From Herbidospora daliensis (lineage in GTDB: Bacteria > Actinomycetota > Actinomycetes > Streptosporangiales > Streptosporangiaceae): DNA of 64,000 nt. The stretch covers positions 69,873 to 133,872 of the forward strand of contig NZ_BBXF01000010.1 in NCBI RefSeq assembly GCF_001570585.1, given 5' to 3'. Positions 48,855 through 55,711 of the stretch are shown here, piece after piece (within the stretch, counting starts at the first letter, position 1; every line of letters begins with the position of its first letter). The position numbers were made by a program, and so were the translations under genes. Under the pieces are notes generated by a model, which was given only the letters and a program-made list of their open reading frames with translations, searched no databases and was not told the DNA's origin.

Positions 48855-50417
48855 TCAGACGTTCACCACGTCGAACTGCTCCCAGGGCCCGATCGCGGTC
48901 CGGTTGGCGATGAGGGGCTGCGCGCCCCCGCCGTCGGCGCAGACCAGGTTGCCGTTGGCCTGGGCGCGGAGGCTGATCGTGCCGTTGGAGTTGTTCACCA
49001 CCTGGAAGGTCTCCCACGGCCCGACGGCGGTCCGGTTGGCGATGAGCGGCTGGGCGCCGGCGGCCTCGGCGGCGACGTACATGCCGTTGGCGCGTGAGCG
49101 CAGGGCGATGTTGCCGTTGCCCAGGTCGACGCGGTCGAACGTGGTCGCGGCGCCGTTGGCGACCAGCGTCGGCCCGGCGTTGACGAGCTGGTTGTTGGCG
49201 CGCGACCGCAGCTGGATGCCGGGCGTCCCGCCGGTGGCCCCGAACCAGGAGAGGTCGAAGGCGTTCGCCATGGCCTGGAACCCGGCGTCGTTCGGGTGGA
49301 GGTGGTCGCCCGGGTCGTAGGCGGGCAGGAACCGGGTCGGGTTGGCGGGGTCGCGGGTGGCGGCGTCGAAGTCGACGACCCGGTCGCAGCCGCTGCCCGA
49401 GCCGCGCACCCACGCGTTGTAGGCGGCGCGGCTGTTCTCGCCGTCCTGCGTCCAGTAATTGGCCCCCTGGAACGGGGTGAGGGTGGCGCAGATGAACTGG
49501 ATGCCCCGGGCGTGCGCCCGGCTGATGAGGTTCTGCGCGCCGGTGATGAGCTGCTGCGCCGTCGGCACGGGCCGGTTCGACCCGACGTCGTTGATGGGGT
49601 TGTCGGCGAACACGACCCACTTGACGCCGGTCTGGTTGAGCACGTCGCGCTCGAACCGGTTGATGGCGCTCTGCCCCGCGCCGTCACGGAGCAGCTGGTT
49701 GCCGCTGATGCCCTGGTTGACCACCCCGACGACGCGCCCGGAGGCGTTGAGCCGGTTCGACAGCAGGTTCGGCCACCGCCGGTTGGCGTTGTGGCTGGAG
49801 GCGACCCCGTCGACGATGGACGCGCCCAGCGCGACCACGGTCCCCGCGCCGTTGGCGCTGTCGACGTCGACCCCCGACAGGATGAAGTTGTCACCGGTCT
49901 CACCGGTCGGCGTGATGGTCGCGTTGCCCGCGACGTTGCCGCCGGCGATGTAGCTGGTCTGCAGCGCCGTCTGGTGATAGGTCGCCGGCCCCGTCGCCGA
50001 CGGCAGGTGGAAACTGACCGCCAGGTCGGAGGAGGCCGCGACCGGCACACTCGCCGCGTCGCTGATGGCCAGCCCCCCGACGGGGATCGTCACCGACTGC
50101 TGCCCGCCGAACGTCATGAGCCGATCTGTGGACGTGTCGACCGACGACCCGCTCGTCCGCCGCGCCACGTGCACGTTCTGCACCGTGATGGCACGCGTGC
50201 CGAAGGCGTTGGAGAGCTGCACCCGAACGGCGGAGCCGCCGATGCTGGTGCGGATGATCTGACGGAGCGTCTGGTTGCTGAACTCGCGGTTCGACCCGCT
50301 CTGCGGAGAGGCCGCCCAGGTGCCGAGCCAGGGGGCGGCGGAGGCGGGGGCGGGGAGGTTGGTCGCGACGAGGACCGCGACGAGGGCGGCCGTGAGCGCC
50401 CGGATTAACCGTTGCAT
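48855..50417 (-). CDS. Secreted SGNH/GDSL hydrolase with C-terminal fascin-like domain
   Basis: 520 residues. Signal peptide MQRLIRALTAALVAVLVATN ending near PASAAPW. SGNH blocks: VVALGASIVDG (Ser nucleophile, Asp replaced by Ala), QGISGNQLL, DNPINDVGS, and GDHLHPNDAGF (catalytic Asp/His). Residues about 395-520 carry two beta-trefoil-like repeats (QLRSRANNQLVNAG, ALRSRANGMYVAAE, SLRAQANGNLVCAD) typical of fascin-type carbohydrate-binding domains. Likely an extracellular esterase on plant or cell-wall polysaccharide. The ATG at 50417 has AAGGAC upstream; a promoter lies at 50461-50489. Confidence 0.9.
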   Translation of the reverse strand: MQRLIRALTAALVAVLVATNLPAPASAAPWLGTWAASPQSGSNREFSNQTLRQIIRTSIGGSAVRVQLSNAFGTRAITVQNVHVARRTSGSSVDTSTDRLMTFGGQQSVTIPVGGLAISDAASVPVAASSDLAVSFHLPSATGPATYHQTALQTSYIAGGNVAGNATITPTGETGDNFILSGVDVDSANGAGTVVALGASIVDGVASSHNANRRWPNLLSNRLNASGRVVGVVNQGISGNQLLRDGAGQSAINRFERDVLNQTGVKWVVFADNPINDVGSNRPVPTAQQLITGAQNLISRAHARGIQFICATLTPFQGANYWTQDGENSRAAYNAWVRGSGSGCDRVVDFDAATRDPANPTRFLPAYDPGDHLHPNDAGFQAMANAFDLSWFGATGGTPGIQLRSRANNQLVNAGPTLVANGAATTFDRVDLGNGNIALRSRANGMYVAAEAAGAQPLIANRTAVGPWETFQVVNNSNGTISLRAQANGNLVCADGGGAQPLIANRTAIGPWEQFDVVNV

Positions 50418-50460
50418 TGTGTCCTTCTGCCTGTACGAGACCACGCTCGTGATCAGGCCG

Positions 50461-50489
50461 AGATTAAGCTGACAGGTCTTTGTCGTCAA
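50461..50489 (-). promoter_or_regulatory. Promoter of the SGNH hydrolase
   Basis: Minus strand TTGACG (50489-50484), 17-bp spacer, TAATCT (50466-50461). Predicted start near 50454, giving a short leader with a ribosome binding site. Confidence 0.65.
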
Positions 50490-50769
50490 CAGATAGGTTG
50501 GATGTATAGGCGCGGGAACGTGACAAAGTGGGCGTTCGAGTGCCTCGAAACCGGACATAGGTCGGACCTGATGGCCGGATGACTAATTCGCGCGGAATGA
50601 CCCGGATATTCTCGGATATAGCGGGATTTGAAGGATTGTCAGGATGACTGTTTCGATGGTTTTGTTACTCCGGAAACAGAGATATCTCTAGAATTCCTGC
50701 GCATCATGCGGTCTGGCCCTATACCCTCTGCGGCGTCACGTTTTCAGATGAGTGTCCGAGGGAACCGGC
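50490..50769. other. AT-enriched gap before the nuclease-ATPase cassette
   Basis: Part of a 352-bp gene-free region. It holds direct repeats CGGATAT at 50603-50609 and 50613-50619 (one helical turn apart) and a perfect 12-bp palindrome AGAGATATCTCT at 50678-50689. Base composition is visibly lower in GC than the flanks. No gene is supported; it likely carries the cassette promoter and operator. Confidence 0.5.
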
Positions 50770-51840
50770 ATGCCATTCACGTGGGGCGATCTCCCAGTGG
50801 GGAGGGTGCTCCGCATTGCCGGAGTGGATTCCAGCATTGACGCCAATGTCATGGAATTGTTGCTCGACCCTTTACCGGAGACCGGCCCGGCCGTCGTCAC
50901 CTACGCGGCGGCGGAGTGTGACTCGGTCGCCGACCTGGTCGGATCCATCCTCCGGGAACTCGAGACGCTGGCCGTCGGGCTCTTTCCGGCCTGGCTGCCC
51001 GAAGGCGACAAGCTCGACGGTCCGGGCGGCGGCGGAATGGCGGCGGCGCGGGTTCTCGCGATGCGCATGGCCACCGGCGGCCGTCATTTCGGACCGTTCC
51101 TGGCCGAACTCGCCGCCCACGCCATTCAGCACCGGGGCGAGTTCTCCCTCGCGCTCAGGCCCGTTCGTGGCCGGAGATTTCCCGCCGAGGTCCGGGCCGC
51201 CGGACTGGCCCGGGTCGTCGCGGCCGCGTATGGGCGTCAGGCGGCGGCGCTCGTCGTCCACGTGCCGGAGAAACCGAGTTCCCACGGCGAGACGGTGCTC
51301 GTGGCCGGTTGTGAGTGGCTGGCCCACCAGAGCGGGATGGGCGTCTGGCTGGTCGGCCCCGAGGTGAAGCGGGTCGAGACCGTACACCTGACCGTGCCCG
51401 AGGCGGTGGCCCGGCTGGCGGCGCGGCTTCCGCCGCCCGAGACGCCCGCCAAGTCGTTGCGGGTGCCCCCGCTCCGCGGCGAGCCCGCCCGCTACAGCGA
51501 GGTCGAGCAGGCCGTGGAGAAGGCGCTGCTCGACTGCCCCTGGGCGCACGGGCGCGAGTGGAACCAGACCTACGCGTCGAACGACTCGCTGTTCGTGACG
51601 ATCCGCACCGACCTGATGTGGGCGCACGAGAAGTGCGTGGTGGAACTCGACGGGCCCGAGCACCTGACGCCCGCCAAGGCCGAGATGGACCGGATTCGGG
51701 ACCGGCATTTGGAACGTGACGGTTTCACCGTCTTGCGCTTCACCAACGAGCAGGTGCTCGACGATCTGCCGGCGGTGCTCCGCCGGATCAGGGATTTCCT
51801 CCTGGGGCGTCGCCTCGGGCTGAGCGAAGGAGCAGTCTGA
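50770..51840 (+). CDS. PD-(D/E)XK (DUF559/Vsr-like) endonuclease of a three-gene cassette
   Basis: 356 residues, ATG at 50770 with GAGGGA nine bases upstream (a GTG at 50752 is also open). The C-terminal about 110 residues look like a DUF559-type nuclease: YSEVEQAVEKALLDC, TDLMWAHEKCVVELDGPEH (candidate D...ExD catalytic residues), DRIRDRHLERDGFTVLRF. The N-terminal 220 residues alternate strands and helices like a degenerate P-loop domain (VVTYAAAECDSVADLVGSIL, AALVVHVPEKPSSHGETVLV) without a Walker motif. Its stop overlaps the next start (TGATG). Likely the effector of the cassette; inference. Confidence 0.75.
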   Translation: MPFTWGDLPVGRVLRIAGVDSSIDANVMELLLDPLPETGPAVVTYAAAECDSVADLVGSILRELETLAVGLFPAWLPEGDKLDGPGGGGMAAARVLAMRMATGGRHFGPFLAELAAHAIQHRGEFSLALRPVRGRRFPAEVRAAGLARVVAAAYGRQAAALVVHVPEKPSSHGETVLVAGCEWLAHQSGMGVWLVGPEVKRVETVHLTVPEAVARLAARLPPPETPAKSLRVPPLRGEPARYSEVEQAVEKALLDCPWAHGREWNQTYASNDSLFVTIRTDLMWAHEKCVVELDGPEHLTPAKAEMDRIRDRHLERDGFTVLRFTNEQVLDDLPAVLRRIRDFLLGRRLGLSEGAV

Positions 51841-52508
51841 TGTCCGAAGAAAGACTCACATACCGGCAGGTTGCGGCCCTCCTTGTCCTCAAGGAACTGG
51901 GGACCGCCGTGGGCCACAAGGATTTGCGCGACAACTGGGGCCTGGACCTCGACACCAAGAACCGCGCCGGATTGGTGGACGCCAAGCTGATCGAGTCGGA
52001 GACGCGGGAACGCCGGACCATCTGGTATTGGATCACGCCGGCCGGTGAGGAGAAGGCGCTGAACGAGGTGCGGAAGGGTGTCACAGTGAGCTCGCGGTCG
52101 GGCAAGACCCTGGCGCTGCTCTACCTGCGCACCCTTGTCGCGCCCGCGACCCCGGCTGCCGTTGAGGCGCCCGAATCGGTGGCTGCACCGGAACCGGTGA
52201 CCGCACCCGAACCGGTGGCCGCGCCGATCGCCCGCCCCGACGACGAGGTGGAGGACCGCATCCGCGAGGCCTATTCGAAGATCACCCCGGGAGTGGGGGA
52301 GTGGGTCTCGCTGACGAGATTGCGACCGCTGCTCGACGACATCGACCGGGCCGAACAGGACAACGCGCTGCGCAGGATGTTGTTCAACGCGCCTGAGGTG
52401 CACATTCTCGCCGCGGCGATCGTCGGCCACCTGTCGCCCGAGGACCACGCCGCCGCCGTCATGATCGGCGACGAGCCCAACCATCAGCTGCGGATCGGAT
52501 CCCGCTGA
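51840..52508 (+). CDS. Winged-helix linker protein of the cassette
   Basis: 222 residues. The N-terminal about 75 form a predicted winged helix (LTYRQVAALLVLKELGTAV, RAGLVDAKLIESETRERR, IWYWITPAGEEKAL). A Pro/Ala/Glu linker (about 100-130) holds repeated APEPV units. The C-terminal about 90 residues are helical (VEDRIREAYSKITPGVGEWV, LRPLLDDIDRAEQDNALRRM). One-base overlaps with both neighbours. No family recognised; it may recruit DNA or regulate the operon. Confidence 0.72.
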   Translation: MSEERLTYRQVAALLVLKELGTAVGHKDLRDNWGLDLDTKNRAGLVDAKLIESETRERRTIWYWITPAGEEKALNEVRKGVTVSSRSGKTLALLYLRTLVAPATPAAVEAPESVAAPEPVTAPEPVAAPIARPDDEVEDRIREAYSKITPGVGEWVSLTRLRPLLDDIDRAEQDNALRRMLFNAPEVHILAAAIVGHLSPEDHAAAVMIGDEPNHQLRIGSR

Positions 52509-55500
52509 TGATCACAGACTGGTATGCGATCAGCTCGCTGAACGTCATCTCGACCGTCAACGGAGGGGAGGACGTCTGGCGTCCCGTGCCCTTCCACGTC
52601 GAAGGATTACATCCCCAGGCGTCGCAAGCACTGACTTCGGGGTTGGAGGCGGCCGCCCGCAGCGGGGGCACCTCCAGCCCGATCGGCGTCGTTCTCGAAG
52701 GGACGGCGGGCAGCGGCAAGACGCACCTCATGAGCTGGCTGCGTGAGCAGGTCATCCGGCGCGACGGCTACTTCTTCCTGATGAGTGTGCTCGACGCGCG
52801 CAACTTCTGGGAGAGCGCCCTGGTGTCCATCCAGGACGGTCTGGGCCGGATCGGGGCCGATGAGGAGAGCCAGCTCAAGCGCTTCCTCCGCAATCTGACC
52901 GAGCCGATGGCGCTGCCCCGCCGGACCCAGCAGGCGGTCATTGGCAACCAGCCGTTGGAGAAGGCGCACCTCAAGGAGTTCATGCAGGGGCTGTACAAGC
53001 GGGACCCCCGGGTGTTCATGGAGGCACAGGACACGGCCCGCGCGCTGGTGCTGCTGGCCTCCAACGACTACAACCTGGCCAGCCTGGGCGACGGCTACAT
53101 GTACGGCATGGAGGACTTCGACGGCGGTCGGCGGGAATGGGAATTCCGGCCGATCACCCGGACTCCGCAGGAACTGGTCCGGGACATCTCGCGGCTGCTC
53201 GCGATGACCGGGCCCAGTGTGATGGCCTTCGACCAGCTCGACCCGCTCATCAGCTCGATGACGCTGTTCGGGAGTGGCGAGGTCGACCCGAAGACCCGGG
53301 CCACCGCCCTGCAGATCGCCCACGGGCTGACCTCACTGCGTGAGGTGACCAGCAGGACCCTGTCGGTCGTCTCCTGTCTGCCGGACACGTGGATTCTGCT
53401 CAAGCAGCTGGCGGTGTCCAGCTTCAAGGACCGGTTCGAGGAGACCACGGTCCTCAAGCGGGTGCCCTCTCCCGAAGTGGGCCGGGAACTGGTGATCAGG
53501 CGGCTGGCGGAGCACTTCAAGAGCATCGGCTTCGAGCCGCCCTACCCCACGTGGCCGGTCCGGCCGGAGGCCTTTGCCGAGGCGCAGGCCTATACGCCGC
53601 GAAAGATCCTCCGGGCCCTCACCGACCACATCGGGGCCTGTGTCGCCCGAGGCGAGGTCAGGGAACTGTTCCGCTTCAACGGGGTGGAGACGCACCAGAT
53701 CGAACCGGTCACCGCGATTCAGGCGACCCTGAGCGAGGTCCACGGCATCGAGACCAAGTTCGCGCTGCTCGAAGACGCCGCCCACGTCACCGGTGCGCTG
53801 GACGCGACGCAGGAGGACGCCGTCCTGCCGAGCCTGCTCGCCGCCGGGTTGCAGGCCTGGGCGATCGAGAAGGGCGACGACACGACGACCTACAAGGTCG
53901 ACCCGACCTTCGGCCAGAAGACCTCCCTGCACGCGCGCCTCCGTCAGGTCCTCGACGAGGCCAGGGAGGACGAGATCCACTGGGCGATCCGCGGCATCAG
54001 CGCCAAGCACCCCAACGCGGCGCTGACCCGGCTCAAGAGGGCGGCCATCGCGGCGGGACTCGAAGCCGAGACGCCCAAGCGCCGGCTCGTCGTCCTCAGG
54101 AACGTTCCGTGGGCGGCCGGGCCCAAGACCCAGCAGGCCCTGGCCGACTTCCGGGCCCGTGGCGGCCGGATCGTCACGGTCGACGAGGACGACCTGAAGA
54201 CCCTCTGCGCCCTGCGCGACCTGATGGCGCAGAACCCGCCGAGCCTCAACAAGTGGCTGGTCCTCAAGCGGCCGGCCAGCGCGGTCAAGCTGCTCAGGGA
54301 GATTCTCGAAGACTGGTCGGACCAGCCCGTCGAGGCGGCGCCGGCCGCTCCGCAGGTGCAGCACGTCCCAAAAGCACCTGAGGGCGACATCCTGGAGGAG
54401 CCGCCCGCGCTGCCGACCCGTGAGGCGGGCACGTCGGGGCACGCGCCGGTGACCCTGACGGATCCCGTGGTCCTGCCCGTCAAGGCGCCCACGCTGGTCG
54501 TCGGGCGCTCCTACGAGCGCGGGCTGCCGGTCTCGGTCGAACTCGAGGCGCTGCGCAAGCACACCGCGATCTTCGCCGGGTCGGGCTCGGGCAAGACCGT
54601 GGTGATCAGACGGATCGTCGAGGAGTGCGCGCTCCAGGGGGTCTCCTCGATCGTGCTCGACACCAACAACGACCTGGCCCGGCTCGGCGACCCCTGGCCC
54701 GAGGAGCCGTCGGCCTGGGGGCCCGGCGACGCGGCCCGCGCGGCGCGCTACATCGCCGACACCGACGTCGTCGTGTGGACGCCGCGCCGGGAGAAGGGCC
54801 GGCCGCTGGCGTTCCAGCCGCTGCCCGACTTCGCCGGGGTCAGGAACGACGTCGACGAGTTCAACGAGGCCGTCGACGCCGCCGTCGCCGCGCTGGTGCC
54901 GAGGGCCAAGGCCGAGGGGAACACCAGCAAGGCCGCGGTTTCGCGGGCGGTGCTCAAGGAGGCCGTCGTCCACTTCGGGAAACACCGGAGCGGCGGCCTC
55001 AACGGGCTCATCGGCCTGCTCGCCGACTTCCCCGAGGACATCAGCCAGATCAGCGGCGCGGTCAAGATCGCCGACGGGCTCGCGCAGGTGCTCCGGGCCG
55101 CGATGGTCAACGACCCGCTGTTCGGCGGCGAGGGGCAGCCGGTCGACCCGGGCCTGCTGCTCACCCCGGCGGCGGGCAAGCGGGCGCGGGTCTCGGTCAT
55201 CTCGTTCGTGGGGTTGCAGAGCGACTCCGAACGGCAGTCGTTCGTGAACCAGCTGCAGATGGCCCTGTTCGCGTGGATCAAGAGGAACCCGGCGGGAGAC
55301 CGGCCGCTCGGCGGGCTGTTCGTCATGGACGAGGCGCAGAACTTCGCCCCGTCCGGCGCGACGACCGTGTGCACGCAGAGCACGCTGGCGCTCGCCTCCC
55401 AGGCCCGGAAATACGGGCTCGGGCTGGTGTTCGCCACCCAGGCGCCGAAGGGGCTGCACAACCGCATCCCCGGCAACGCGGCCACCCAGTTCTACGGGCT

Positions 55501-55711
55501 GCTCAACGCGCAGGTGCAGATCGAGGCGGCCAAGGAGATGGCGCGGGTCAAAGGCGGCAGCGCCGACGACATCGGGTCGTTGCGCAGCGGTCAGTTCTAC
55601 GTCGCGCCCGAAGGGGCCGGCTTCGCGAAGGTGCGCACGCCGCTCTGTCTCAGCCACCACCCCCGTGCCCCGCTGACCACCGAGGAGGTCATCGACCGGG
55701 CGAGCCGGTGA
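52508..55711 (+). CDS. Double P-loop ATPase: AAA module fused to HerA/FtsK-like module
   Basis: 1067 residues. First ATPase: Walker A EGTAGSGKTHL (about 64-74), Walker B-like SVMAFDQLDPLIS, then arginine-rich helices (LVIRRLAEHFKSIGF) as in STAND/AAA+ proteins. A middle region (about 440-610, with WAIRGISAKHPNAALTRLKR and a LVVLRNVPWA strand) and a Pro-rich linker lead to a HerA-type translocase module: FAGSGSGKTVVIRRIVEE (about 690), LFVMDEAQNFAPSG (about 938), then VFATQAPKGLHNRIPGN. HerA ATPases pump DNA for partner nucleases. The stop overlaps the convergent DUF2264 gene by 23 bp. Confidence 0.85.
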   Translation: MITDWYAISSLNVISTVNGGEDVWRPVPFHVEGLHPQASQALTSGLEAAARSGGTSSPIGVVLEGTAGSGKTHLMSWLREQVIRRDGYFFLMSVLDARNFWESALVSIQDGLGRIGADEESQLKRFLRNLTEPMALPRRTQQAVIGNQPLEKAHLKEFMQGLYKRDPRVFMEAQDTARALVLLASNDYNLASLGDGYMYGMEDFDGGRREWEFRPITRTPQELVRDISRLLAMTGPSVMAFDQLDPLISSMTLFGSGEVDPKTRATALQIAHGLTSLREVTSRTLSVVSCLPDTWILLKQLAVSSFKDRFEETTVLKRVPSPEVGRELVIRRLAEHFKSIGFEPPYPTWPVRPEAFAEAQAYTPRKILRALTDHIGACVARGEVRELFRFNGVETHQIEPVTAIQATLSEVHGIETKFALLEDAAHVTGALDATQEDAVLPSLLAAGLQAWAIEKGDDTTTYKVDPTFGQKTSLHARLRQVLDEAREDEIHWAIRGISAKHPNAALTRLKRAAIAAGLEAETPKRRLVVLRNVPWAAGPKTQQALADFRARGGRIVTVDEDDLKTLCALRDLMAQNPPSLNKWLVLKRPASAVKLLREILEDWSDQPVEAAPAAPQVQHVPKAPEGDILEEPPALPTREAGTSGHAPVTLTDPVVLPVKAPTLVVGRSYERGLPVSVELEALRKHTAIFAGSGSGKTVVIRRIVEECALQGVSSIVLDTNNDLARLGDPWPEEPSAWGPGDAARAARYIADTDVVVWTPRREKGRPLAFQPLPDFAGVRNDVDEFNEAVDAAVAALVPRAKAEGNTSKAAVSRAVLKEAVVHFGKHRSGGLNGLIGLLADFPEDISQISGAVKIADGLAQVLRAAMVNDPLFGGEGQPVDPGLLLTPAAGKRARVSVISFVGLQSDSERQSFVNQLQMALFAWIKRNPAGDRPLGGLFVMDEAQNFAPSGATTVCTQSTLALASQARKYGLGLVFATQAPKGLHNRIPGNAATQFYGLLNAQVQIEAAKEMARVKGGSADDIGSLRSGQFYVAPEGAGFAKVRTPLCLSHHPRAPLTTEEVIDRASR

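Follow-up and report, generated by a model that had tools for sequence, protein, structure and literature searches.

A three-gene cassette joining an AAA-HerA double motor to exchangeable nucleases, a candidate variant of the predicted HerA/FtsK-capture defence class

The 64,000-nucleotide stretch of Herbidospora daliensis DNA analysed here (contig NZ_BBXF01000010.1, positions 69,873 to 133,872; hereafter the window) belongs to an 8.5 Mb genome and carries three + strand open reading frames encoding a nuclease (gene 1), a winged-helix-like protein (gene 2) and a 1067-residue double-motor ATPase (gene 3). The cassette lies where a first-pass annotation, made from the letters of the DNA, had placed a candidate defence system. 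Judged from its sequences and from those of its relatives, it is probably an operon that defends against invaders (phage, plasmid or conjugating DNA) and is of the predicted HerA/FtsK-capture type; we rate it as an effector-swapping variant of that class.

The nuclease beside a conserved two-gene core is exchanged

We examined 85 loci with profiles, 40 from contigs and 45 from family genomes, all selected via gene 3. Gene 3 is thus present in all 85 by selection, gene 2 in 84 and gene 1 in 61. In 14 loci gene 1 is replaced by a DUF4365 protein and a protein of the 366-residue type, encoded immediately upstream of gene 2, and in three an AIPR gene lies downstream of gene 3. No nuclease was found in the remaining seven, two of which (L057 and L059) start at a contig end, and no locus among the 85 has two nuclease kinds. 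These neighbourhoods show gene 2 and gene 3 as a core that travels with one interchangeable nuclease module.

The DUF4365 family was recognised by Pfam in the two examples tested (E 1.8e-10 and 4e-10). The PADLOC models that match are PDC-M02A (E 4e-71) and PDC-M02B (E 5e-141) for the pair, with two members of each scanned, and AbiU (E 9e-114) for the one AIPR protein scanned. M02B matched 44 places in the family; 20 of them, at E <1e-60, are all on the contig of gene 3 and within about 4 kb of it, and the other 24 are distant places with 26-36% identity. We fetched ten of the distant places, taking 11-16 kb each. An M02A-like gene was called in eight and a match to gene 2 or gene 3 in none, which indicates that the PDC-M02 pair also exists apart from the gene 2-gene 3 core; in one of the ten (L137), a sequence some 7 kb off weakly matches the gene 1 type (E 3e-6). 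The genome of the window itself holds a distant, stand-alone PDC-M02A/B-like pair on another contig (L128, G000:C2:171321-172379).

A tree of gene 3 with 82 rows requires six changes of nuclease in total, of which one falls to the M02 group and one to the AbiU group (2 rows). This is a quick tree with long branches flagged, and its M02 branch has a support of only 48.

Architecture of the three proteins

The sequence TGATG occurs at both gene junctions, so that each pair of neighbouring genes has one base in common, as the first-pass annotation had read. The parts of the cassette are:

Gene 1, 50770..51840, + strand: predicted VSR/DUF559 nuclease with an N-terminal AAA/STAND-like domain without Walker A; alternative GTG start at 50752
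Gene 1 nuclease domain (residues 241-349), 51490..51816, + strand: E246, D281, E292, D294, H298 and R323 invariant
Gene 2, 51840..52508, + strand: 222 aa; winged-helix-like N-terminal part, variable Pro/Ala/Glu/Val linker and conserved C-terminal domain
Gene 2 linker with APEPV-type repeats, 52080..52238, + strand: least conserved part of gene 2
Gene 3, 52508..55711, + strand: 1067-residue double-motor ATPase
Gene 3 AAA/STAND-type ATPase region (residues 16-400), 52553..53707, + strand: Walker A at G65-T72, DQxD at 242-245
Gene 3 middle alpha/beta domain (residues 404-604), 53717..54319, + strand: candidate inactive restriction-endonuclease fold, from secondary structure
Gene 3 predicted disordered linker (about residues 605-658), 54320..54481, + strand: predicted local distance difference test score (pLDDT) <50
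Gene 3 HerA/FtsK translocase motor, 54482..55711, + strand: Walker A at 691-697, DE at 941-942, sensor Q978

Gene 1 encodes 362 aa if started at the GTG and 356 aa if started at the ATG at 50770, which has GAGGG seven bases upstream. Pfam places DUF559 at residues 287-349 (E 1.5e-12), and the protein has a PD-(D/E)XK-type fold. The VSR/DUF559 active-site residues E, D, ExD, H and R are conserved in it; those checked are invariant in 62 of 62 sequences. Gene 1 matches only DUF559 and weaker nuclease-type families, with no DUF4297 or SIR2 among them. Foldseek gave no match at E <0.001 for gene 1; the VSR match came from a re-examination of the structure search and from the sequence. No model of PADLOC-DB 2.0.0, a 2023 library, matches the window protein, and in two relatives DpdF matches weakly and over a local stretch (E 1e-4 and 0.016). 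Gene 1 is thus, by sequence and predicted fold, an intact VSR/DUF559 nuclease. The first-pass annotation had read it as a PD-(D/E)XK-like nuclease with a degenerate N-terminal domain, and was right on both counts, the latter domain being ATPase-like (AAA/STAND-like) and without Walker A.

Gene 2 is probably a winged-helix protein. Its N-terminal 80 residues follow a MarR-like winged-helix pattern, and two relatives match Pfam HTH_36 and HTH_27 weakly (E about 0.1). Of the earlier description of a winged helix followed by an APEPV linker, the repeat stands as described, and the winged helix holds as a sequence pattern with helix-turn-helix matches at this level only. Gene 2 has no noteworthy match in Pfam, NCBIfam or PADLOC, and PADLOC-DB 2.0.0 has none for six of its relatives. 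One relative (L041) has a CATRA-C match (E 0.0025) below the family cut-off. A calmodulin match of the family profile (E 2e-4) was taken as false, an effect of helical spacing, since the alignment has no EF-hand loop. Among seven Herbidospora-type loci (21 pairs), the C-terminal part is the best conserved, with a median identity of 0.83, followed by the N-terminal part with 0.75 and the linker with 0.60. The linker also varies in length and sequence among homologues and, being the least conserved part as well, is probably a flexible spacer.

Gene 3 has AAA_22 at residues 61-157 (E 1.1e-07) and, in the same chain, DUF87/HerA from residue 664 onwards (E 8.1e-11), which bears out the predicted 1067-residue fusion of an AAA/STAND-type ATPase with a HerA translocase. 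Across the family the AAA part matches AAA_16 in 39 of 41 members, AAA_22 in 16 and NACHT in 11, and on these profiles it clearly belongs to the AAA/STAND class. Its best match among PDB profiles is weak (E 0.016), and the matches do not separate the Orc/CDC6 clade. The middle domain, whose elements follow the AAA region in the order alpha-beta-beta-beta-alpha-beta, has as its best PDB profile match the restriction endonuclease 4f0p, at a non-significant E of 0.5, and Pfam has no match above cut-off for it in the window protein. The Foldseek and VIA matches of gene 3 are filled by HerA and thereby barely probe the AAA and middle domains. In PADLOC-DB 2.0.0, too, gene 3 matches only through its HerA part, besides P-loop matches at E 0.07 or worse. 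Profile comparison of the cassette parts against each other (seven pairs) gave nothing, with probabilities <2%.

Within the genus, the median ratios of nonsynonymous to synonymous substitution rates (dN/dS) of genes 1, 2 and 3 are 0.23, 0.24 and 0.14 (15 pairs of six genomes), and all three genes are under purifying selection. Since the same three genes also recur in 61 of 85 homologous loci, the trio is more than a chance neighbourhood. Gene 2 diverges faster than its neighbours: its median identity to H. yilanensis is 0.45, compared with 0.71 in gene 1 and 0.74 in gene 3. The dN/dS of gene 2 is close to that of gene 1, so this divergence alone is no proof of an arms race.

Comparison with known and predicted systems

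Rakesh, Aravind and Krishnan (2024; PMC10853773) predicted mobile neighbourhoods that combine an Orc/CDC6 ATPase, an inactive and an active restriction endonuclease (REase), a HerA/FtsK motor and a winged helix-turn-helix (wHTH), whether on a single chain or spread over several. In their proposal, invader DNA is intercepted by the motor. As its text defines them, the inactive REase lies between the AAA core and a C-terminal wHTH, and the active REase is of either of two families, AbiJ-type being the only one that is named. PMC12839542 extends the idea to BREX-related capture systems. Our cassette likewise has in one operon an AAA/STAND-class ATPase, the required HerA/FtsK motor (in gene 3), a predicted active REase, which may or may not be of the second family, and a probable wHTH; some of the systems described in the text of PMC10853773 also include a rapidly evolving wHTH protein, and an anti-invader role was proposed for them. 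It differs from these descriptions in having AAA and HerA in one chain and a VSR/DUF559 nuclease that is exchangeable for a DUF4365 pair or an AIPR protein. The cassette resembles the HerA/FtsK-capture class as described there and is a candidate member of it, the inactive REase being only a candidate assignment in gene 3 and the AAA part being placed in the AAA/STAND class at large. The main text of PMC10853773 contains none of the words 'vsr', 'aipr', 'duf559' and 'rhodococcus', and its figures or supplements may contain the same operon.

Other systems are further off. Fold matches of gene 3 point to HerA-DUF4297 and SIR2-HerA, which also pair a HerA motor with an effector enzyme. In those systems HerA is a protein of its own, with a DUF4297 or SIR2 partner; here no such partner was found, the HerA half is fused to AAA and works beside a VSR-like enzyme, and the cassette has a third gene. 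For DndFGH, the PADLOC DndH model matches gene 3 only locally (E 0.11), the cassette has no DndH multidomain protein, and the nuclease is a separate VSR-like protein. The best PADLOC match of the HerA half is mad8 of MADS (E 4e-16), and only the motor matches; MADS is an eight-gene operon with a methyltransferase, a family absent from the ten neighbours scanned. As to PDC-M02, whose pair replaces gene 1 at the loci given above, neither PDC-M02A nor PDC-M02B matches any of the three window proteins.

We found no paper on the trio and nothing on PDC-M02 in a literature search whose coverage excluded preprints and most subscription journals. The earlier suggestion of an undescribed system holds in so far as PADLOC-DB 2.0.0 has no model for genes 1 and 2, and is weakened by the concept being already predicted in the text of PMC10853773. 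To this the present analysis adds a core in which AAA and HerA share one chain, together with its VSR-like, DUF4365-pair or AIPR nucleases; it also adds how that core is spread and a divergent cassette at a fixed site.

Spread, co-occurrence and exchange at a fixed site

The whole-genome searches scored few candidates per genome (two for gene 3, six for M02B and gene 1), so that the following counts, like the M02B counts given above, are lower bounds. Gene 3 was found in at least 120 of 297 family genomes (E up to 0.001), in 29 of 68 genera; 13 matches are weak, leaving 107 genomes at E <1e-10. In a phylum sample it was found in at least 6 of 396 genomes, its own included (E up to 1e-60). Gene 1 occurs in at least 79 of the 297 family genomes (E up to 1e-15), and 78 of these also have gene 3, the exception (G166) being a 310-contig assembly; in G154 gene 1 matches only weakly, and on a contig other than that of gene 3. 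The 107 genomes with gene 3 divide into 78 that also have gene 1, a further 19 in which M02B matches beside gene 3, and 10 with neither of the two. The full trio is also present in two alphaproteobacteria, Methylobacterium aquaticum and Xanthobacter. Co-occurrence of all three genes in scattered genomes and variable loci had been set beforehand as a test of the proposal, and was observed, the trio occurring in scattered genomes and with differing flanks. Over 59 loci, the distances of gene 1 are correlated with those of gene 3 (r 0.84, permutation p 0.001), which common descent would bring about just as partnership would.

The nearest relatives of gene 3 are those of Herbidospora species, at 73-93% identity. 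Two flanking genes of H. yilanensis (L052), those for DUF2264 and aldehyde dehydrogenase, are 90% and 95% identical to their counterparts in the window, which is ordinary for the genus; the GDSL lipase match spans 37 residues only. The H. yilanensis cassette is only 73% (gene 3) and 71% (gene 1) identical to that of the window, as compared with 84-93% and 82-90% for five other Herbidospora. The L052 gene 3 is 81% identical to that of a locus in another genus (L069, in G100), where DUF2264 is 63% identical to that of L052 and on another contig. A divergent cassette beside ordinary flanking genes is most simply explained if the cassette was exchanged horizontally at this site; a possible alternative is a second copy of old standing, sorted by loss.

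Gene 3 is present in 3 of 72,556 plasmid records. Only one is convincing, a Methylobacterium aquaticum megaplasmid that is typed mobilizable and carries the full trio, since another record is 11.9 Mb long (the plasmid collection contains an 11.9 Mb Nonomuraea record) and the third is a Tsukamurella record with ribosomal genes. The latter (L126, NZ_LR134464.1), labelled 'plasmid 22', holds a ribosomal-protein operon and is probably a chromosome piece or wrongly labelled. No gene 3 was found in 50,697 phage records or in a scan of viral contigs.

A probable role in defence

Defence against invaders is favoured over housekeeping by the patchy spread, the exchange of the nuclease and the divergent cassette at a fixed site, and on the same grounds a housekeeping repair set was rejected as first choice. 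The conserved trio, its scattered occurrence and the swapped nucleases support the first-pass call of a candidate defence system. Two observations weigh against it: gene 3 is in all seven searched genomes of the genus, and therefore stable there, and the flanks in the window are metabolic genes, with no defence island. The first-pass annotation had also named homologues found alone as a core set as a sign to the contrary; this is not the pattern of gene 1, which is accompanied by gene 3 in nearly every family genome that has it, nor of the patchy spread, yet the stability of gene 3 in the genus goes some way towards it.

In the mechanism that we propose, gene 3 would assemble into a ring. Its AAA/STAND-like half, together with the winged helix of gene 2, would either recognise DNA or a protein of the invader or be loaded on it. 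The HerA half, flexibly tethered, would pump the DNA, and gene 1, docked via its ATPase-like domain, would cut the DNA so delivered. Since the nuclease is partnered by a DNA pump, we favour targeted restriction over abortive destruction of self-DNA.

Abortive infection, in which the sensing of an infection would load the nuclease on host DNA and kill or arrest the cell, draws on two features. AbiU/AIPR, which takes the place of gene 1 in three loci, is named after abortive infection, and AAA/STAND-class ATPase domains, of which gene 3 has one, are common in abortive-infection sensors. However, a processive DNA pump is unnecessary for indiscriminate killing, and we hold this explanation to be unlikely. 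Equally improbable, or nearly so, is a machine for DNA repair or end resection, comparable to archaeal HerA-NurA, whose pump and nuclease would process broken DNA of the cell itself. Such a machine would have to be reconciled with the patchy spread in family and phylum, with a divergent cassette at a fixed site and with a nuclease partner that is replaced by nucleases PADLOC lists as defence or defence candidates. That the genes serve transfer or maintenance of an integrated element, with no part in defence, is very unlikely, given the absence of gene 3 from the phage records and viral contigs and of any integrase, relaxase or other transfer family from the Pfam-scanned flanking genes (a small part of the neighbourhoods).

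The chances seem evenly balanced that genes 2 and 3 form a general-purpose defence chassis, a sensor, loader and pump built on a one-chain STAND-like ATPase and HerA motor, which takes VSR-like, DUF4365-pair and AIPR/AbiU nucleases as cartridges. If so, AbiU and PDC-M02, each listed as a separate system, would be effectors that can plug into such a pump or work without it. The cassette offers the predicted defence class a concrete and compact three-gene example, with an intact nuclease, in culturable actinobacteria. Its conserved pump core and swapped cutter make the idea of HerA/FtsK capture directly testable and connect candidate PDC-M02 and AbiU with one motor.

Flanking genes, other sites and variant loci

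Upstream of the cassette in the window is a GDSL lipase gene (48855-50558, - strand), and downstream are genes for a DUF2264 protein, an aldehyde dehydrogenase and sugar-transport-type functions. The GC content of the trio (0.694, against 0.713 for the window) is uninformative on its origin.

In the two loci checked, the cassette stands between rpsQ (S17) and rplN (L14):

Rhodococcus, L031:6540-17794: cassette in the ribosomal-protein region
Tsukamurella, L126:3819-19183: cassette in the ribosomal-protein region, with a VapB/PIN pair beside it

By common flanking genes (single linkage), 26 loci of Rhodococcus, Williamsia and Gordonia form one cluster, and it looks as if the ribosomal-protein region of Mycobacteriales were an insertion hotspot for the cassette. 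A TerD-AIM24 fusion protein follows the cassette in the Rhodococcus locus (L031:13094-14419). In two Gordonia loci (L048:9162-13207 and L049:9267-13174) the gene 2-gene 3 core is near ribosomal genes, with no recognised nuclease adjoining. Rhodococcus sp. IEGM 1381 (L056:610-9579) has, in tandem after a complete trio, a second gene 2-gene 3 pair without a gene 1 of its own. Finally, a protein of 724-733 residues is encoded directly upstream of the cassette in two loci (L086:4028-6229 and L098:11819-13993); it has a helix-turn-helix-like N-terminus, a P-loop-like stretch and weak tetratricopeptide-repeat (TPR) matches, and is possibly an added sensor.
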